Shown here one piece after another: positions 23,527-33,010 of a stretch of 64,000 nucleotides of DNA (position 1 is the stretch's first letter; the number at the start of each line of letters is the position of its first letter). Both the position numbers and the translations under genes were made by a program. The notes under the pieces are model-generated. The model worked only from the letters and a program-made list of their open reading frames with translations. It was not told the origin of the DNA and ran no database searches. Origin of the DNA: Achromobacter dolens (GTDB lineage Bacteria > Pseudomonadota > Gammaproteobacteria > Burkholderiales > Burkholderiaceae_B); NCBI RefSeq assembly GCF_902859745.1, contig NZ_CADIJW010000009.1, positions 1 through 64,000 of the forward strand, read 5' to 3'.

Positions 23527-24540
23527 ATGAATCGCGAGCAACACCCCCCGATCGACGACGCGCAGCGCCGCCGCGCGCTGGCCGCCCTGGGCGCGGCCGG
23601 CCTCTGTGCGCTGGCCCCTTGGCGCCAGGCCCTGGCGCAGAAAGGCGCCTGGCCGGAACGGCCCATCAATTACGTCGTGCCGTTTCCCCCGGGAGGCCTG
23701 ACCGACGTGGCAGCGCGCCAGGTCGGCAAGGCGCTGAACGATGCCGAACGCTGGAACATCGTGGTCGAGAACCGCCCGGGCGGCAGCGCCAACATTGGCG
23801 CTGCCCACGTCTCGCACGCCGCGCCCGACGGCTACACCTGGCTGGCCATCACCCTGTCGCACGCCGCCAACGCCACGCTGTTCGCCGGCAAGGCCGGCTA
23901 CGACCTGACCCGCGACCTGGCGCCGGTGGCCGGCCTGGCTTCGTCACCCATCATGGTGGTGGTCAACGCCAAGAGCCCCATCAAAACCATGGACGACCTG
24001 GCCCGCGCGGCTGCCGCCAAGCCGTTGGCCGCCGGCTCCAGCGGCAATGGCACGCCGCCGCACCTGACGCTGGCGCTGTACCAGAAGCTGACCGGCGCGC
24101 CGCTGATGCACGTGCCCTACAAGGGCGGCGCGCCGTCGCTGACCGACCTCATCGGCGGCCACCTGGACGTGGTGTTTTCCAATTACCCCGAATCGCTCGC
24201 GCATGTGAAGAACGGCTCGCTGCGCGCCCTGGCCATCACCACCCGCGCGCGCAGCGCCGACCTGCCCGACGTGCCCACGGTGGCGCAGGCCGGACTGCCG
24301 GACTTGATCGTGGAGAACTTCACCGGCGTGATGGCGCCGGCCAGCACGCCGCCGGAGCTGGTGCAGCGCATCGGCGAAGCCATCGTCAAGCAGGTGTCGC
24401 AGCCCGCGATGCAGCAGGCGCTGCTGCAGTTGGGATTCGTGCCGCAGCCGCGCGGACCGGCCGAGTTCGGCAGCTACCTGCGGTCGGAGGTCGACCGCTG
24501 GGCCAGGATCATCCGCGACGCCAACATCCAGATCGCCTGA
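23527..24540 (+). CDS. Bug-family (tripartite tricarboxylate transporter) periplasmic binding protein
   Basis: The 337-residue protein has a signal peptide with the twin-arginine-like stretch QRRRALAALGAAG and ends ALAQ near residue 38. The mature part has the Bug hallmarks RPINYVVPFPPGGLTDVAAR, VENRPGGSANIGAA and VPYKGGAPSLTDLIGG. No TctA or TctB membrane subunits lie in the window, so it must pair with subunits encoded elsewhere. Its place inside the suyAB-dehydrogenase set suggests it binds sulfolactate or a related C3 acid. The 217 bp before it are GC-rich with no gene; AGGAGG precedes the ATG. Confidence 0.88.
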   Translation: MNREQHPPIDDAQRRRALAALGAAGLCALAPWRQALAQKGAWPERPINYVVPFPPGGLTDVAARQVGKALNDAERWNIVVENRPGGSANIGAAHVSHAAPDGYTWLAITLSHAANATLFAGKAGYDLTRDLAPVAGLASSPIMVVVNAKSPIKTMDDLARAAAAKPLAAGSSGNGTPPHLTLALYQKLTGAPLMHVPYKGGAPSLTDLIGGHLDVVFSNYPESLAHVKNGSLRALAITTRARSADLPDVPTVAQAGLPDLIVENFTGVMAPASTPPELVQRIGEAIVKQVSQPAMQQALLQLGFVPQPRGPAEFGSYLRSEVDRWARIIRDANIQIA

Positions 24541-24553
24541 CGCCGGAGCCGCC

Positions 24554-25489
24554 ATGCACGTGCTTATCTCGGAATTCATGGACGCGCCCGCGGTCGACGC
24601 GCTGCGCCAGCGCTTCGACGTGCGCTACGCCCCCGACCTGGTGGACCAGCGCGACGCCCTGCTGCGCGCCGCCGGCCAGGCCGACGCCCTCATCGTGCGC
24701 AACCGCAGCCAGGTGGACGCGGCCTTGTTGGCGGCCGCGCCGCGGCTGCGGGCGGTCGGCCGGCTGGGCGTGGGGCTGGACAACATCGACCTGCCCGGCT
24801 GCGCGGCGCGCGGTATCCAGGTGGTGCCGGCCACCGGCGCCAACGCGCGCGCGGTGGCCGAGTACGTCATCGGCACGTTGCTGGCGCTGCTGCGCGGCGC
24901 CTACGGCGCCAGCGCCGCCGTGGCCGACGGCCAATGGCCCCGGGCCGCCCTATCGCAGGGGCTGGAGGCGCACGGGCGCACCCTGGGCGTGGTGGGTTTC
25001 GGCGGCATCGGCCAGTTGACCGCGCGGCTGGCGGCCGGCCTGGGCATACGCATCGTCGCCTGCGACGCCGCCCTGCCGGCGACCCATCCCGCCTGGGCCG
25101 AAACCTGCGCCACGCGGCTGGAACTGGACGACCTGCTGGCGCAGGCCGACGCCGTCACCCTGCACGTGCCCCTGACCGCCGGCACCCGCCATCTGCTGGA
25201 CGCCGCCCGCATCGCTCGAATGCGGCCGGGCGCGGTGCTGATCAACACGTCGCGCGGCGGCATCGTCGACGAGGCCGCGCTGGCGGCGGCCTTGCGCGGC
25301 GGCCGCCTGGGCGGCGCGGCCCTGGACGTGTTCGAACAGGAGCCGCTGCCGGCCGGCGGCCCGCTGGCCGGGGCGCCCAACCTGATCCTGACCCCGCATA
25401 TTGCCGGCTTGACGCAGGAAGCCAACACCCGCGTTTCCGACATGGTGGCCGCCGGTGTGACAATAGCGCTTACCGGCGGCGCCCAATGA
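24554..25489 (+). CDS. slcC: D-isomer 2-hydroxyacid dehydrogenase, probable (S)-sulfolactate dehydrogenase (SlcC-like)
   Basis: The 311-residue NAD-dependent dehydrogenase has LIVRNRSQVD in the substrate domain, the Rossmann motif LGVVGFGGIGQLTARLAAGL, the catalytic Arg region INTSRGGIVDEAAL, FEQEPLP and the final LTPHIAGLTQEAN with catalytic His. The family covers phosphoglycerate and glyoxylate reductases, but in sulfolactate operons this position is held by SlcC, which oxidises (S)-sulfolactate to sulfopyruvate. It starts 14 bp after the Bug gene and 31 bp before the ComC-like gene. The function is a context inference. Confidence 0.75.
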   Translation: MHVLISEFMDAPAVDALRQRFDVRYAPDLVDQRDALLRAAGQADALIVRNRSQVDAALLAAAPRLRAVGRLGVGLDNIDLPGCAARGIQVVPATGANARAVAEYVIGTLLALLRGAYGASAAVADGQWPRAALSQGLEAHGRTLGVVGFGGIGQLTARLAAGLGIRIVACDAALPATHPAWAETCATRLELDDLLAQADAVTLHVPLTAGTRHLLDAARIARMRPGAVLINTSRGGIVDEAALAAALRGGRLGGAALDVFEQEPLPAGGPLAGAPNLILTPHIAGLTQEANTRVSDMVAAGVTIALTGGAQ

Positions 25490-25519
25490 AACGCGGCGCG
25501 CCTCGCTGACAGGAAGGAT

Positions 25520-26527
25520 ATGGCTCACATCTATCTGGACGAACTTCAACACCTGGCCGCGGCCAGCCTGGCCGCCGCGGGCGCCAACCCGGCCATGGCC
25601 GACAGCACCGCCCGCGCGCTGGTCTTCGCCGAAAGCCAGGGGCTCAGTTCCCACGGCCTGTCGCGCGTGCCGTTCTACGCCGGCCACCTGCGCACCGGCC
25701 GCGCCATCGGCAACGCCGTGCCGCGCATCGTGCACGAGCGCGGCGGCGCGGCGCTGATCGACGCCGGCTCGGGCCTGGCGTTCCCGGCATGCGCGCTGGC
25801 GGTGGCCGAAGCCAGCCGCCGCGCGCGCGAACACGGCGTGGCCTTCATCGGCGTGGCCAACAGCCACCATTTCGGCGAGGCCGGCTATCACCTGGAAGCG
25901 CTGGCCGATGCCGGCCTGGTGGCGCTGGCGCTGAGCAACTCGCCCGCCGCCATGCCGGCCTGGGGCGGAAAGCGTCCGCTATTTGGCACCAACCCCATCG
26001 CCGCCGTCTTTCCGCGTCGCGGCGGCGGCCGCATCGTCATCGACCTGTCCTTGTCGCAGGTGGCGCGCGGCAAGCTCATGATCGCGGCGCGCGACAACCA
26101 GCCGATCCCGCTGGGCTGGGCGCTGGACGCCGACGGCCAGCCCACCACCGATCCCAAGGCCGGCCTGGCCGGCAGCATGCTGCCCGCCGGCGGCGTCAAG
26201 GGCGCGATGCTGGCGCTGATCATCGAGCTGCTGGCCTGCGCCCTGACCGGCTCGCACTTCGGTTTCGAGACCGAGTCGTTCTTCGTCGACGCGGGCGGCC
26301 CCGCGCGGCTTGGGCAGGCCTTCATGGCCATCGACCCGGGCGCGCTGGCGGGCAACGAGGCCTACCTCGAACGCGTCGAGACGCTGGTGGCAGCCATGCT
26401 GGAAGACGACGGCGTGCGCCTGCCCGGCGACCGCCGCCGCAAGCTGCGCGACGAGGCGCTCAAGCATGGCGTGGAAATCCCCGAAGCGCTGATGGCACAG
26501 TTGCGCGCCATGTCGGGCGTGGCCTGA
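25520..26527 (+). CDS. comC: Ldh-family malate/lactate-type dehydrogenase, probable (R)-sulfolactate dehydrogenase (ComC-like)
   Basis: This 335-residue protein belongs to the NAD(P)-dependent malate/L-sulfolactate dehydrogenase family, not the classical LDH fold. It shows ESQGLSSHGLSRVPFYAGHL, the catalytic-His region VANSHHFGEAGYHLEAL, FGTNPIAAVFP and GGVKGAMLALIIELLACAL. In sulfolactate degraders ComC reduces sulfopyruvate to (R)-sulfolactate, so with SlcC it turns the S enantiomer into the SuyAB substrate. It is the last gene of the set; no sulfite oxidase or exporter follows. Confidence 0.78.
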   Translation: MAHIYLDELQHLAAASLAAAGANPAMADSTARALVFAESQGLSSHGLSRVPFYAGHLRTGRAIGNAVPRIVHERGGAALIDAGSGLAFPACALAVAEASRRAREHGVAFIGVANSHHFGEAGYHLEALADAGLVALALSNSPAAMPAWGGKRPLFGTNPIAAVFPRRGGGRIVIDLSLSQVARGKLMIAARDNQPIPLGWALDADGQPTTDPKAGLAGSMLPAGGVKGAMLALIIELLACALTGSHFGFETESFFVDAGGPARLGQAFMAIDPGALAGNEAYLERVETLVAAMLEDDGVRLPGDRRRKLRDEALKHGVEIPEALMAQLRAMSGVA

Positions 26528-26613
26528 ATATTCCCCGGCGGTGGCTTGCCCGGCGGCCGGACGGGCCCCGCCCACTGCCGACCCGACGCACTTCGACCTG
26601 CTCGCCCTTCGCT

Positions 26614-27225
26614 ATGACCGATGACGATCTGGCCGGCCTATATGCCGGCGGCGCCACCCACCTGGACGCGGCCACGCTGGCGACAGCGGGCCTCGATCCC
26701 TCCAGCCGCGCCTGGCTCGCCGACCACGGCCTGCCGTTGCGGCCCGAGCCCGCCATCCCCCTGCTGGAGTTCGTGCCGCCCCGCATGCACGCCGGCGGCA
26801 ACGCCGCCATCCTCGTGATCGCGCGCGAACCGTGGGCCGACGCGCTGTGGATAGGAATCGCGGCGGATGGCCGCGTGGTGACGGCAGGCGCGGACGGGCC
26901 ACCGATCCTCATCAACAGCCGCATCACGCATTTCCTGCATTTCCTGGCCGCGTTCCAACGCTTCCAACGCGCGGCCAGCCGTGACGATGCGGGGCCCCGC
27001 GTGTACACCCAGGCCGAGATGCAGGCCCGACTCGACGCGTTGCGCCAGGGCCAGGGCCGGCGCGCGAGCCCGCCCGCCTCACGAGCACCCGCCACGCCGG
27101 CCCTTGACCGCCCTGCCGCGCTGCGCCGGCTCGAGCAGGCCTGGCGCGACTGTGATGCCGCCGCCCTGGCCCGCGGCGGTTGGTGGCTCCGTATCCGGGA
27201 ACAACTGCGCGACGGCCTGCTGTAG
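26614..27225 (+). CDS. SUKH-4-like protein (possible immunity protein)
   Basis: The 203-residue protein starts at the ATG of MTDDDLAGLYAGGATHL. Its middle third resembles SUKH-superfamily immunity proteins: a LADHGLPLRPEP opening, a strand-rich core with ILVIAREPWADALWIGI, and the closing INSRITHFLHFLAAFQRFQ (the vNsS..F...l motif). The last 65 residues are a Pro/Ala/Arg-rich linker and a short helical tail with two Trp residues. SUKH proteins often neutralise polymorphic toxins; no toxin is recognised next to it. It converges with the Ig-repeat gene. The assignment is by motif impression only. Confidence 0.5.
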   Translation: MTDDDLAGLYAGGATHLDAATLATAGLDPSSRAWLADHGLPLRPEPAIPLLEFVPPRMHAGGNAAILVIAREPWADALWIGIAADGRVVTAGADGPPILINSRITHFLHFLAAFQRFQRAASRDDAGPRVYTQAEMQARLDALRQGQGRRASPPASRAPATPALDRPAALRRLEQAWRDCDAAALARGGWWLRIREQLRDGLL

Positions 27226-27291
27226 CCTGCCGCACCCCGCCGCCGGCCGAACTCCCGGGGCGAATGGCCCTACCTCTACGGAGTCAACCGC

Positions 27292-30231
27292 TCAAGGCCA
27301 GGTGACCGTGAAAATCTTGTTCACCGCATGCCCGGCCGCATCGGTCACGGTCACTTTTATCGCCGACGACATGCCCGGCGCAGCGCCGGGTCGGACCCGC
27401 AGGTTCCGCGGAGCGCGGCTGTCCGTTCCGGCTTTCGTGAATTCCAGCAGGTCGGCAACGCCCAATGCTGCCGTCATGGCGACATCGCCGACCCCGCCAG
27501 ATACCGTCACGAAAGAATCGAGCGTCACGTCGGGCTCTCCCACGGCAGGTCCAGCCAGGGCGTCCGAGGTGAGTTGCACGGCCAGCGCCGGCGCGATCTC
27601 CAGGTTGAAGAAGGCCGAGGTGGGCACCGCCTCCACCAAGGGGTCCGAGATCGCGACGGCAAAGGTATTGGAGGGCGACACTTCGAGCGCCGTACCGGTT
27701 ATCTCGCCGGTCGTGGAATCCATCGTCAAGCCGGCCGGCAAGCCGCCATGGAGCATGCGGTACTCAAGCTTCCGTCCGCCCGCGCCCCCTCCTTGCACAG
27801 GGCTGTAGCTGACGGCGTCGCCAATCATGTAAGCCTTGACAGGCACCCGCACGTTCGCGGTGGGCCGCTCGAACGCCAGCAGGCCGAAGCGCTCCTGCAC
27901 CGTGTGCGCCGGCGAGGCGGTATCGCTGATAGTGACGGTGTAGCGCGCAATGTTGGTGTCCAACTGCTCGACCGTCGGGGTGCCCGAAATGACGCCGGTC
28001 GCCCGATCCATCGTCAAGCCATCCGGCAGGGGCGGCGCCACGTCGTACGATAGCGACCCGACGCCGCCCGACGCCGTCACTGGCGCATAGGCCGTCAGCG
28101 GTTCGTTCAAGGCCTGCGTGGTGTACGGCTGGTTGAGCGCGGCCGCCAGGTTGCCATGCACCGCGAGCGTGAAGGTGGCGGTGACGGTCTGCAAGGGATC
28201 GGCGCTGTCGGTCACCGTGACCGTGTATTCCGTGGCAGGCGACACCGCGATCGGCGTTCCGGGGACATTCTTGATCTTGCCGTTCCGCTCCTCCATTTGC
28301 AGCCCGTCCGGCAAAGGGGGCTGCACGCTGAAGTGGAGCAGGCCCAGGCCGCCCACGGCATTGACCGGGGCCTCGTCGACGATTTCGGCGTCGACCATGA
28401 TGGAAACGGCCGGCTTCACCGTGGCCGCCGTCAGCGCCGGTACGACCAGCAGGGAAAAGGTGCCCGTCGCCGAATGCTCCGGCATGGCGCTGTCCGTCAC
28501 GGTGTAGGTATATGTGGCGAGCAAAGACGGCGTGGTCGTGACCCCGGTGATCGCGCCGGTTCCCGCGTTCAGGGCCAGGCCCGCCGGCAGTGCCGGCGTC
28601 ACGCTGTAGCGATACGGAGGCACGCCGCCCCAGGTGAGGGCCGGCGTATAGGAAACCGTGTCATGTACCCGATGTACTTCGCCGGCGTTGGGTACATTGG
28701 TCTGGAGGATCGGAAAAACCCGGAGCGAGAAGGCCGAGCTGGCCCTCTGCCCAACGCTGTCGCTGACAGTGACGGTGTAGACGGTCTCGGCAGACTCGCC
28801 CACGGCGGAACCCGAGATGCCGCCGTCGCTTGCATCCAGGGCCAAGCCTGCCGGCAAGGCAGGTGAAATCTCGAAATGGCGCGCGCCGACACCCCCGGAG
28901 GCCTCGACGGGAGCCGCGACCGTCACGGGGTCCCCCGCCGTCACGGAGATCGCATCGACCCGGCTCGTCACCGAGATCGTCTCACCAACCTCCATCATGA
29001 AAGAGGCCGTGACCGTATGCGCCGGCGAATCGCTATCGGTGACCGTGACCGCGTACGTAGTCAGAGGCGCTACCGCGACGGCGGACCCCGTCAGCATGCC
29101 AGTCGCCTCGTCCAGCGCCAGCCCTGCCGGCAATGCGGGGGAAACGGAATAATGAAGCGCTCCCACGCCGCCCGCGGCGGTCACCGGCTGATAGCTGAGC
29201 TCGCGGCCGACGACGGCGTCCGTCGTCCCCGAGGGAGTGGCGACCGCTGTCAGCAAGCCCCTGATCTCCAGCGTGAAATTGGCGCTGACCTCATGCGAGG
29301 GCGAGGCCCCGTCAGTGACCGTCACGGTGTACTCGGTCCGGGGCGATGCCATCGCGGCGGATCCCGTGATGGCGCCGGTCGACGCATCCATTGTCAATCC
29401 GGCCGGCAGCGCCGGGGCGACCGCATACCCGAGCGTACCGATTCCCCCCACGGCCGACACCGGCGTGTCATTGAGCGGATCACCCGCCTGCGCCACCCAG
29501 GTGGCACGATTGACGGTGGAGAGCAAGGCTGCCCCGATCGCCAGGCTGAACCGGGCCGTGGCGGCCCCCGGCGGCGTGCCGCTGTCGGTCACTGTCACCG
29601 TATAGTCGGTCAGTGGCGACGGGACGAGGGCGCTACCCGTCACGGCGCCGGTTTCCACGGAAAATTCCAACCCCGCGGGCAAGGCGGGAGTGACGGCGTA
29701 GTGCAACTTGCCAATACCTCCGCCGCCGCTCACCGGAACCACATCGGCGCCGACCGCTACGCCGACCAGCCAGCTTCGCGACGTGAAATTGGCGCTGGCC
29801 GACAGCGGCCCGGCCACCGTCACCTGATAGCTGCCGGCGCCTGCCTCGAACCCGGGCAGGTCGGCCGCCTGCGTGGCGGAGATGGTGGCGGAGCCCGCCG
29901 CCACCGCGGTGACCGTGCCATCGGCGGCAACGCGCGCGATGGCGTCGTCGCTCGAACGATAGGTGATGGCGCCTTTGCTGGCCGGCTGGTCGCTGAGTGC
30001 CGGGTTGCCGACGGCATCCCCGACCGTCAGCGTGACGGACGCCTGCGCGAAGCCCAGCCGCGGCGTGACGGAGACCTTTTGCACGACCACGCTGATCACG
30101 CTCAACCGCGACTGCGCGACGGCGAGGTCGACCCAGGCCAGGGCGAGGACCAGGCAGGCCCCCGTCAGGGTGTAGAGCGCCAGGTAGAACGGCGTCTTGA
30201 GAAATTGGACGATCTTCTTGCGGTTTGTCAT
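27292..30231 (-). CDS. Secreted Ig-like repeat protein (Big_2-like domain plus He_PIG repeats)
   Basis: This 979-residue protein starts with a basic N-terminus and one long hydrophobic segment (about residues 14-39, YLALYTLTGACLVLALAW, then VAQS), a signal peptide or anchor. A bacterial Ig-like domain follows (about 45-140, SSDDAIARVAADGTVTAVAAG). The remainder is at least eight repeats of 90-100 residues, each with LPxGLxxdxxTGxitG then YTVTVTDSxxP and a closing F.L.V strand, the putative-Ig (He_PIG) pattern. There is no C-terminal anchor, sorting signal or toxin domain; it ends VNKIFTVTWP. Its ATG overlaps the stop of the barrel gene (ATGA), so both are made together. It is probably a cell-surface fibre or adhesin. 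Confidence 0.85.
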   Translation of the reverse strand: MTNRKKIVQFLKTPFYLALYTLTGACLVLALAWVDLAVAQSRLSVISVVVQKVSVTPRLGFAQASVTLTVGDAVGNPALSDQPASKGAITYRSSDDAIARVAADGTVTAVAAGSATISATQAADLPGFEAGAGSYQVTVAGPLSASANFTSRSWLVGVAVGADVVPVSGGGGIGKLHYAVTPALPAGLEFSVETGAVTGSALVPSPLTDYTVTVTDSGTPPGAATARFSLAIGAALLSTVNRATWVAQAGDPLNDTPVSAVGGIGTLGYAVAPALPAGLTMDASTGAITGSAAMASPRTEYTVTVTDGASPSHEVSANFTLEIRGLLTAVATPSGTTDAVVGRELSYQPVTAAGGVGALHYSVSPALPAGLALDEATGMLTGSAVAVAPLTTYAVTVTDSDSPAHTVTASFMMEVGETISVTSRVDAISVTAGDPVTVAAPVEASGGVGARHFEISPALPAGLALDASDGGISGSAVGESAETVYTVTVSDSVGQRASSAFSLRVFPILQTNVPNAGEVHRVHDTVSYTPALTWGGVPPYRYSVTPALPAGLALNAGTGAITGVTTTPSLLATYTYTVTDSAMPEHSATGTFSLLVVPALTAATVKPAVSIMVDAEIVDEAPVNAVGGLGLLHFSVQPPLPDGLQMEERNGKIKNVPGTPIAVSPATEYTVTVTDSADPLQTVTATFTLAVHGNLAAALNQPYTTQALNEPLTAYAPVTASGGVGSLSYDVAPPLPDGLTMDRATGVISGTPTVEQLDTNIARYTVTISDTASPAHTVQERFGLLAFERPTANVRVPVKAYMIGDAVSYSPVQGGGAGGRKLEYRMLHGGLPAGLTMDSTTGEITGTALEVSPSNTFAVAISDPLVEAVPTSAFFNLEIAPALAVQLTSDALAGPAVGEPDVTLDSFVTVSGGVGDVAMTAALGVADLLEFTKAGTDSRAPRNLRVRPGAAPGMSSAIKVTVTDAAGHAVNKIFTVTWP

Positions 30232-31844
30232 TTCCGGCCCACCGTGATCTTGACGTTGTAGGCGGACGTGGTGGCGTCGGTGACGCGCACCAGGTATTCA
30301 TCCGTTGCCGTGGGAACCGGCAGCCTGGGCAGGTCCACCACGAGCTGCTCGGGCGCCACCGAAAACTGCGGCGAAATGCCGATGTCGGCGCCGTTCTTCT
30401 GCACCGACGCCAGGACCAGCGCGCCGCTGCCGACGGCGATGGTGAGTCGTTGGCCATCGGCGCTGACCTCGGCGCCGGGCGGCAAGCCGGCCTTTTCGAC
30501 GAAGACTTCCCGCACCCCGGTACGGTCGACCTTGGCCAGGAAGGTCTGTGGAATGCGGTCCGGACGCGTGATGGCCTTGTCGAGCAAGCGGGCGCCGGTG
30601 TATTGCTGCATCGACTCGCGCAGCGCCAGCGAGGTATCGTCGGCCGTATGGCGTGACGGCGAAATCAGTTTCATCAGGTCGACGTAAACCATGACCGTCT
30701 TGCTGTTGAGCGCGCCATCGCGGCCGCGCGACATGCCGAACGACAGGCGCGCCTTGTCGCCCGACAAGCTGGCGATCAGATCGCGCGACACGCCGGTGGA
30801 TACGCGCATGTCGAACAGGTAGTCCTTGTAGAGCGCGAACTTCACGCCGCCGGAGAGATAGGGACGATGGCGGCTCTCGACCGAGCCGTCGCCCATCGGG
30901 TAGCGTTCGTGTTCCAGGCCGAGCGACGAGCTGAGCACCAGCGAGGAGGACGGCGCGTATTGCAGGTCCACGCTGGCGCCGTACAGCCGGCCGGTGGAGA
31001 TGCGGCGCGGGTCGTAGAGCACGCGGGCGTAGTTGGCGTAGTCCTCGAGCACCGTGCGGCTCGACAGGTCGTTCCGGCTGTGCGCCCGCGCGCCCCAAGC
31101 GGACGCGCCCAACGCATGCAGGCCAAGGCCAGACTCGGGCGTGAACAGGCGGCGCGCCGACAGCACGCCCGCCAGTTGCGTGACCGGCACGCGCGCGCTG
31201 CCGGAATCGAAATCGAACGACGGCCGGCCTTTCATCAGCGACACCGCGGCGTCGAATTCGTATTGCTTGCTGGCGTCGACGAAAATGCCGCGGCCAATCA
31301 GTTCGCGCTGGTATTCACCGAGCTGCATGCTCGCACCGAGGGCGAAACGATCGGTGATGAGCCGGGCGTATTCGATGCGGCCGATCGGCGCGTTGTCCAT
31401 GGCGCCGCCGCCGACCCGGAACCGCGAATCGGGCGTGGACAGCGCGAAGGAATCCCGCCCCAGCGACACGGTGCCGTCGCCCACGGGCACGGTCAGGTTT
31501 GGATTCGACGCGCCCATGCGCGTGCCGGTCGCCGCGGCCATCATGGGATTGCCCCGGGCATCGCGCCGCGCCTGCTCGGCCCGCGCGGATTCCTGCAGGA
31601 AGGCAGCGAAGGCACGTTCGAGTTCGCGCTTGTCGCCGGCTTGCGGCGCCGGCAGGTCGGGCAACCCGCCCGCCGCGGCAGGCGTGGTCAAGGCGAAGGC
31701 CGCGGCCAACGCCAAGAGGACCCGCGCGCAGTGGCGGGACTGAAGCCCGCCACAGTCGACGGAGATCTTGCGAGGAGACGATTCCGTATTGGGATGGGGC
31801 GCCCGAGGGGCGATGGGCTTCCGCAAGGAAACGGACTGAGGCAT
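30228..31844 (-). CDS. Predicted outer-membrane beta-barrel protein, partner of the Ig-repeat protein
   Basis: The 538-residue protein has an extended signal peptide: about 39 polar residues, then ARVLLALAAAFALTTPAAA. A short helical stretch follows (ELERAFAAFLQESARAEQARR). Roughly residues 140-430 alternate in the way of transmembrane beta-strands (YARLITDRFALGASMQLGEY, SGLGLHALGASAWGARAH, YGASVDLQYAPSSSLVLSSS), and the last 110 residues look like one Ig-like sandwich (TATDEYLVRVTDATTSAYNV). No named family is recognised; inverse autotransporter (intimin) barrels are the nearest analogy. It is translationally coupled to the Ig-repeat gene. The start could lie further downstream. Confidence 0.7.
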   Translation of the reverse strand: MPQSVSLRKPIAPRAPHPNTESSPRKISVDCGGLQSRHCARVLLALAAAFALTTPAAAGGLPDLPAPQAGDKRELERAFAAFLQESARAEQARRDARGNPMMAAATGTRMGASNPNLTVPVGDGTVSLGRDSFALSTPDSRFRVGGGAMDNAPIGRIEYARLITDRFALGASMQLGEYQRELIGRGIFVDASKQYEFDAAVSLMKGRPSFDFDSGSARVPVTQLAGVLSARRLFTPESGLGLHALGASAWGARAHSRNDLSSRTVLEDYANYARVLYDPRRISTGRLYGASVDLQYAPSSSLVLSSSLGLEHERYPMGDGSVESRHRPYLSGGVKFALYKDYLFDMRVSTGVSRDLIASLSGDKARLSFGMSRGRDGALNSKTVMVYVDLMKLISPSRHTADDTSLALRESMQQYTGARLLDKAITRPDRIPQTFLAKVDRTGVREVFVEKAGLPPGAEVSADGQRLTIAVGSGALVLASVQKNGADIGISPQFSVAPEQLVVDLPRLPVPTATDEYLVRVTDATTSAYNVKITVGRK

Positions 31845-32107
31845 CTTGATATTTCCAACATCGGCCGTGGCGATGTCGCCGGAACCTGAATCACGAGGAA
31901 TGCGTTGATTCTAGGTATCTGGAAGGGGCGAAATGACCGCGCGGCCGACACACAAAATTAATTGAGTGAATCGACCATCACGGTCAATTGGACTAGCAAA
32001 ATATCCGAATGCCTGCGGCGAAAGAAGCGCGCGCCCTCTAGAATCGGACGGCCAGAATGCGCAATCGTCAAAGGGCGAAAATCAGCGCCGGAAAATGACA
32101 CCAGGGG
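31845..32107. other. Non-coding spacer, relatively AT-rich
   Basis: About 260 bp separate the barrel gene from the AEC transporter gene, both on the minus strand. The part near 31930-32000 is AT-richer than its surroundings and would hold the promoter of the barrel/Ig unit. No gene, hairpin terminator or repeat was recognised. Confidence 0.6.
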
Positions 32108-33010
32108 TCACATTCCGGCGGCGCGGCTGAACCAGAGCATCAGCGGCGCCAACAGCAGGAACACCACAGTGGACACCAGCACCGCGCCGGCGGCGGTGTC
32201 GCCCATGTCCGTGTAGCGCTTGGCGTACATGTAGCTGACCACCGCGCACGGCATGGCCATCTGCAGCGTCAGCGCGCCGGCCAGCACCGGCTCCAGATCG
32301 AGGATCCACACGATCGCCAGGCCCGCGCCCAACCCGGTCACCAGCCGCATCGCCGCCACCTTGGCGCCGTCGCGCACGCCGTTGGCGGGGATCAGCGCCA
32401 GCGCGTGGCCCAGGCTCAGCAGCATCAGCGGCACCGTCACCGCGCCCAGCATGCGGGCGGTCTCGATCAGCCAGGCCGGCACCGGGATGTGCAGCATGCG
32501 CATGGCGACAGCCACCACCGAGGCCAGCAGGATCGGACTTTTCCAACTGCCCTTGGTGTTGACGCCAGGCAGCAGCCGCACCGCGATGGTGTGCATGACG
32601 AAGGAATTGACGGCGAAGAACGCCACCGCCACCGACAGGCCGGCATCGCCGAACGCCAGTTGCGAGATCGGCAGGCCCAGGTTGCCGGCATTGGGCAGGA
32701 ACGCCGTCGGCAACAGGGTGCGCACCGGCAGGCGGCCCAGCTTGAGGAGCAGGGCGCAAACCAGCGCGCACAGCAGCAGCGCCAGCAGCGTGGCGGCCGC
32801 CACGTCGGCCAGCGCGCGGTCGTCCAGGTGGGTCGTGACGAAGGTGTGGAACACCAGCGCCGGCGTGGTGACGGACGTGACCAGCGTGGTGATGAAGGCG
32901 CCGCCGAACGGCAGGTCGCGCTTGCCCCAGAAGACGCCGATGCCGACGCACGACAGGAGCGGCAACATCAGCACGATGGCCGACAAATAGAACTGCGCGA
33001 TGGCCAGCAT
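32108..33010 (-). CDS. AEC-family (auxin efflux carrier) transporter
   Basis: The 300-residue protein has ten predicted membrane spans in two halves, with LPNAGNLGLPISQLAFGDAG in the first half and LQMAMPCAVVSYMYAKRYTD in the second, typical of AEC permeases (malonate, malate or auxin-type substrates). The first span begins FYLSAIVLMLPLLSCVGIG. It is divergent from the small LuxR-type HTH gene with about 118 bp between them, which may be regulatory. The substrate is unknown. Confidence 0.88.
   Translation of the reverse strand: MLAIAQFYLSAIVLMLPLLSCVGIGVFWGKRDLPFGGAFITTLVTSVTTPALVFHTFVTTHLDDRALADVAAATLLALLLCALVCALLLKLGRLPVRTLLPTAFLPNAGNLGLPISQLAFGDAGLSVAVAFFAVNSFVMHTIAVRLLPGVNTKGSWKSPILLASVVAVAMRMLHIPVPAWLIETARMLGAVTVPLMLLSLGHALALIPANGVRDGAKVAAMRLVTGLGAGLAIVWILDLEPVLAGALTLQMAMPCAVVSYMYAKRYTDMGDTAAGAVLVSTVVFLLLAPLMLWFSRAAGM

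Follow-up and report, generated by a model that had tools for sequence, protein, structure and literature searches.

Two adjacent genes lie on the minus strand of the window, which is the whole 64,000-nucleotide stretch of Achromobacter dolens DNA that was analysed. The first gene (positions 30228..31844, minus strand), taken from the list of open reading frames and its translation, encodes a 538-residue protein predicted to be an outer-membrane beta-barrel. The second gene (27292..30231, minus strand), delimited from the same list and by Pfam, encodes a 979-residue Ig-repeat protein that is predicted to be exported on the basis of an N-terminal signal sequence recognised by eye. The stop codon of the first gene and the start codon of the second one are joined in an ATGA overlap (30228..30231, minus strand), as had been reported in the first-pass annotation, and the same overlap was present in the three other carriers, A. 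insuavis, A. ruhlandii and A. pulmonis. Both reading frames were regarded as genes rather than chance reading frames because both are under purifying selection, as estimated by dN/dS. A single gene broken by a frameshift was considered and ruled out, because the second gene carries its own signal sequence (by eye) and the overlap is common to all four species. The intergenic region upstream of the pair (31845..32107, minus strand) was alignable only among the four carriers, no sigma-70 consensus was found in it by a promoter scan, and the terminator scan gave 2 sites versus 3.2 expected by chance.

The 979-residue protein had been described as one Big_2-like domain plus at least eight He_PIG repeats with no anchor of its own, and this description was confirmed by Pfam: Big_2 was matched once at E 3.7e-8, He_PIG was matched in eight stretches at a whole-protein E of 3.5e-67, and no family typical of an anchor, such as a barrel or a sorting domain, was among the matches. 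The Big_2-containing N-terminal region (about residues 41-140; 29812..30111, minus strand) was delimited by Pfam and by conservation. All 8 of the He_PIG matches at E 0.001 in the window's genome fall in this protein. The lengths of the Ig protein among the four carriers are 979, 900, 887 and 1363 residues; a 273-bp array of 5.2 copies with 88% match was detected in the Ig gene of A. pulmonis (locus L011), and no repeat array was detectable in that of the window.

Beside the pair, a convergent gene at 26536-27225 (plus strand) matched the SUKH-4 immunity protein family at 26.1 bits versus a cut-off of 25.5 bits, and DNA matching this SUKH-4-like gene was found next to the Mem_trans gene in two genomes with an empty site (L023 and L029). 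The region 23527-26527 (plus strand) encodes a Bug/TctC-like binding protein and a hydroxyacid dehydrogenase (both assigned by eye) and an Ldh_2 family dehydrogenase.

Insertion site and distribution

The pair is bounded upstream by a Mem_trans gene (32108-33010), for which a long match was obtained in 42 of the 43 Achromobacter genomes, the 43rd genome being 78% complete, while the stretch beyond Mem_trans (query 885-1151) was matched only in the four carriers. The loci of 30 of the 43 genomes were inspected, comprising 4 carriers and 26 empty sites. At all 26 empty loci, Mem_trans gives way within about 125 bp to sequence whose matches in the window end at 26505-27247, and a blastn search (E 1e-3) detected no part of the insert there; in L029, only about 10 bp lie between the counterparts of positions 27247 and 32121. 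The limits of the insert were set by this comparison with empty loci at 27248..32120. In a Mem_trans tree of the 30 genomes, the four carriers and two empty genomes formed one clade of six (support 99/96), a placement that fits either one gain with loss or local transfer.

The barrel gene was found in 4 of 121 relatives, all within 1 of 79 genera, and the Ig gene in 4 of the 43 Achromobacter genomes, which are the same four. Conservation of the two genes as a pair had been proposed as a check of the first-pass annotation; they were adjacent in all four carriers, and neither was found alone. Since the pair sits at one locus, this joint occurrence probably counts as one evolutionary event and not as independent co-inheritance. 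A scan that picks up close relatives only, covering one genome per species (84,980 species), returned three loci, all from Achromobacter and belonging to A. insuavis, A. ruhlandii and A. pulmonis; no homologue was found outside this genus among the genomes searched, and a search of plasmids for the barrel returned nothing. Weak matches of the barrel profile at the class level (3 of 369 genomes besides the window's; E 0.005-0.009 over 63-75 positions) were dismissed as chance, as were those at the order level (14 of 399 genomes besides the window's; E up to 0.05), where about 20 were expected. Eleven of these 14 fell on positions 376-451 of alignment A3, a segment with a weak resemblance to methionyl-tRNA formyltransferase, and 8 of the eleven were in reading frames of 308-364 residues.

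Within the order, He_PIG is widespread, occurring in 89 of 250 genomes. Twenty He_PIG loci were fetched, of which 11 were readable, the chosen reading frames of the other 9 holding no motif; with a strict cut-off, 4 of the 20 gave matches. The idea that split He_PIG pairs form a wider family was rejected, as none of the 11 readable loci had an upstream partner resembling the barrel. By eye, three of the He_PIG proteins (L126, L127 and L138) end in an autotransporter-like barrel, three (L125, L128 and L129) carry C-terminal sorting-like tails, and in L144 the motif lies in a very large repeat protein. The He_PIG repeat proteins of L134 (Achromobacter G037) and L144 (same family, G046) share an N-terminus containing NSDGSLTELH and look like large secreted adhesins.

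Features of the 538-residue protein

The 538-residue protein was divided, with limits set by eye from the alignment, into a signal sequence to about residue 59, a conserved helical-looking segment (about 61-100), a beta-rich region (about 120-400) and a C-terminal domain of about 138 residues (about 401-538). No Pfam family matched the protein, and residues 61-538 of the four orthologues gave no match even at E 10; two NCBIfam matches were both far under their cut-offs, and a sequence search against solved structures gave matches at chance level only. An extended signal peptide had been proposed for this protein, for which the start codon, conserved and preceded by GGAA in all four carriers, speaks, while the N-terminal sequence is hardly conserved; in L011 the long N-terminus contains frame-shifting indels with the overall frame restored. 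Such an extension is thus possible, yet it is not a conserved element. The C-terminal Ig-like domain that had been assigned to the protein was not recovered, as no Ig family matched the C-terminal residues in Pfam at E 10 and the profile of the partner's repeats matched over 14 columns at E 0.019 with a probability of 2.5%. In the barrel's own chain these about 138 residues are what follows the beta-rich region, and the repeats sit in the separate protein.

About 12 amphipathic strands, with short turns and longer loops, were counted by eye between residues 138 and 395, a loop pattern that is also readable as 1-2 more strands. In residues 120-400, 13 alternating segments were counted versus 8.3 in shuffles (z 2.2), as compared with z 1.8-2.8 for seven inverse autotransporter (IAT) barrels and z -0.3 to 1.0 for six ordinary proteins of the window; the Ig protein itself scored z 2.6. 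The segment count was the only one of four alternation measures on which the 538-residue protein was within the IAT range, its z scores for mean alternation (1.4) and for lag-2 correlation (0.6) being below those of all seven IAT barrels. A first hand-made beta-barrel scale was too weak to use (AUC 0.82-0.86), and on it the protein exceeded only 66-84% of non-barrels and ranked below the Ig protein. A logistic model was trained on 6 porins and 22 TonB receptors versus 273 other proteins of the same genome. With it, residues 120-400 scored above 99% of the 273 non-barrels with composition features and above 98% without them, the corresponding values of the three orthologues being 94-99%; when composition was included, the protein scored under all 28 known barrels. 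The model sets barrels apart from other proteins of the same genome, but its scores for the Ig protein and for intimin-type passengers reach those of barrels, which means that barrels and all-beta proteins that are secreted cannot be distinguished by it. From these sequence features, the 538-residue protein is considered likely to be an outer-membrane barrel, an estimate that rests partly on the look of the hairpins.

PF11924 (IAT_beta) gave no match in the window's genome, and across the phylum it was found in 20 of 398 genomes, none of them from the window's order. In the same phylum and another class, L067 and L070 each have a PF11924 barrel followed by a beta-helix-type passenger, not Ig domains (L067 matching IAT_beta and Right handed beta helix, L070 matching IAT_beta and DUF1565); L068, L069 and L079 look alike by eye, L079 having matched IAT_beta alone. 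Comparison of the 538-residue protein with four IAT profiles by hhalign gave E 0.11-0.38 over 7-54 columns, i.e. no detectable relationship at a sensitivity that is limited because the query profile is shallow (Neff 1.16) and the control is weak with narrow profiles. In that control, diverged alphaproteobacterial IATs reached E 2e-9 to 6e-9 against two broader IAT sets, and 9e-7 to 0.003 with narrower or single-sequence profiles (0.00014-0.003 for the narrow ones). The predicted barrel is apparently unrelated to the IAT family, as a convergent or a very diverged variant.

Selection and variation of the two genes

In the barrel gene dN/dS was 0.24-0.30, in the Ig gene 0.38-0.49, and in three flanking genes from 0.04 to 0.20, with the exception of one pair at 0.30 (a reading frame of another length). 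Over six pairs, mean identity of the barrel was 85%, rising to 99% at residues 176-225, and that of the Ig protein was 57%, with a peak of 85% at residues 76-125, which correspond to the Big_2 domain. Between A. insuavis and A. ruhlandii (the L009/L010 pair), dS was 0.06 for the barrel gene and 0.55 for the Ig gene, as compared with 0.21-0.22 for the flanking Mem_trans and Ldh2 genes and 0.45 for the third flanking gene (a reading frame of another length). Identity of the Ig protein in this comparison was 93-96% at residues 41-120, 44-68% at about residues 160-560, and 95% near residue 800. Because the dS of the barrel gene is low, that of the Ig gene is high and the identity drops in the centre, the unit has probably moved between A. 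insuavis and A. ruhlandii more recently than the flanks diverged, and the central repeats of the Ig gene have probably been replaced between them.

A mosaic and length-varying Ig protein of this kind looks like an exposed, diversifying surface protein, and a constant barrel with a variable Ig protein fits a displayed stalk that a constant partner exports or holds in place. The constant Big_2 region is a candidate docking region for the barrel, and its constancy may alternatively have structural reasons.

Comparison with known systems and proposed mechanism

An undescribed two-component system for surface display or secretion had been suggested in the first-pass annotation. A two-component unit is still the best reading, as the genes are kept together and a constant partner is combined with a variable one, but the split layout has already been published. 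In Salmonella enterica, the outer-membrane barrel gene zirT is followed by zirS, which encodes an exported protein of its own whose secretion requires the ZirT barrel; the zirTSU genes are on a horizontally acquired island, with zirS 26 bp downstream of zirT (PMC2270342). ZirT has IgSF domains after the barrel (PMC6714894). SinH/SinI of Salmonella and IatB/EcSMS35_2660 of E. coli, whose partners have no barrel, were proposed as analogues of zirTSU in the second paper, where transport of the partner was left open for both (PMC6714894). The Achromobacter pair would resemble ZirT/ZirS in having a gene for a predicted barrel beside a separate gene with a predicted exported product. It differs in that ZirT is a clear intimin/invasin homologue whereas the Achromobacter barrel is without detectable relation, and in that the partner in Achromobacter is large and built of He_PIG repeats, its gene overlapping that of the barrel. 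Likewise, the order of a (here predicted) barrel gene and then one encoding a barrel-less protein is shared with SinH/SinI and IatB/EcSMS35_2660 as described there, whereas theirs are genuine PF11924 barrels, that of IatB having been tested.

YchO of E. coli K-12, an inverse autotransporter (type Ve) of comparable length (464 residues), is similar by eye in combining a barrel with a single C-terminal domain, whereas it aligns with the PF11924 set and is followed by narL on the other strand, with no Ig partner gene adjoining. In two-partner secretion (type Vb, TpsA/TpsB), an exported passenger and its outer-membrane partner are separate chains encoded together. The Achromobacter pair also encodes a predicted outer-membrane partner and a separate exported protein together, whereas neither protein gave a match to a TPS domain, a POTRA or an Omp85-type family. 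A classical autotransporter (type Va) would carry a C-terminal barrel on the repeat protein itself, and no barrel family was matched in the Ig protein. No such unit in Achromobacter was found by title in the literature searched, which mostly leaves out subscription papers. What is new is the apparently unrelated barrel in a split layout, the layout itself being known.

We propose that the pair may be a ZirT/ZirS-like two-partner surface unit in which the barrel is apparently unrelated to ZirT, a reading to which about an even chance is given. Each protein would use the Sec pathway and its own signal sequence to cross the inner membrane, and the 538-residue protein would fold as an outer-membrane barrel that exports the Ig-repeat protein, holds it at the surface, or both. 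The barrel would probably recognise the constant N-terminal Big_2 domain, the variable He_PIG repeats would form an exposed, diversifying stalk or adhesin, as the pattern of variation supports, and the translational overlap would keep the two products in step. In a bolder form, which we consider unlikely, the 538-residue protein would found a new translocator family, unrelated to intimin-type, Omp85-type and classical autotransporter barrels, and would export a mosaic Ig protein, made as a separate chain, by reading the constant Big_2 domain, as a case of convergent two-partner secretion.

The part taken by the barrel may be smaller than proposed. It could only anchor or scaffold the Ig protein, which would be exported otherwise (by type II secretion or BAM/TAM) or would stay in the periplasm bound to the barrel. 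The barrel's own 138-residue C-terminal domain could make contact with a partner at the outer or the periplasmic face of the membrane, and the literature searched holds few cases in which a separate chain is transported as by ZirT; however, the mosaic, length-varying Ig protein looks surface-exposed rather than periplasmic, and the partner may be specific, given that it was missing from all 11 readable He_PIG loci of the order (20 fetched). We consider this account rather unlikely.

The identity of the 538-residue protein bears on two further readings. It might be a second secreted or periplasmic all-beta protein and not a barrel, as the discriminators cannot separate barrels from secreted Ig proteins and no protein family supports a barrel; residues 120-400, however, match no Ig family and their segment count is within the IAT range, though the Ig protein scores higher, and an all-beta protein of this kind is judged improbable. 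Alternatively, it might be a genuine but extremely diverged inverse autotransporter, with the pair being of the ZirTS/SinH-SinI kind, and by eye its parts come in the same order as in YchO, the signal sequence being followed by an LPDL segment, then about 12 beta segments and one C-terminal domain. Against such an origin are the lack of PF11924 in the genome, the lack of Pfam matches at E 10 and the hhalign values far from those of the control, read at their limited sensitivity, and we regard it as quite improbable.

For type V secretion, it is still debated how a passenger gets across by way of a small barrel or alongside it. If the proposed ZirT/ZirS-like mechanism is true, the pairing of barrels with Ig stalks made as separate chains would have arisen more than once, and a separate-chain partner of roughly 90-140 kDa (estimated from 887-1363 residues) could be moved or held by a barrel of small size. 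Some Achromobacter species of the carrier group are known from human infection, and under the same mechanism a few species of this genus would gain a swappable surface protein on a constant anchor.
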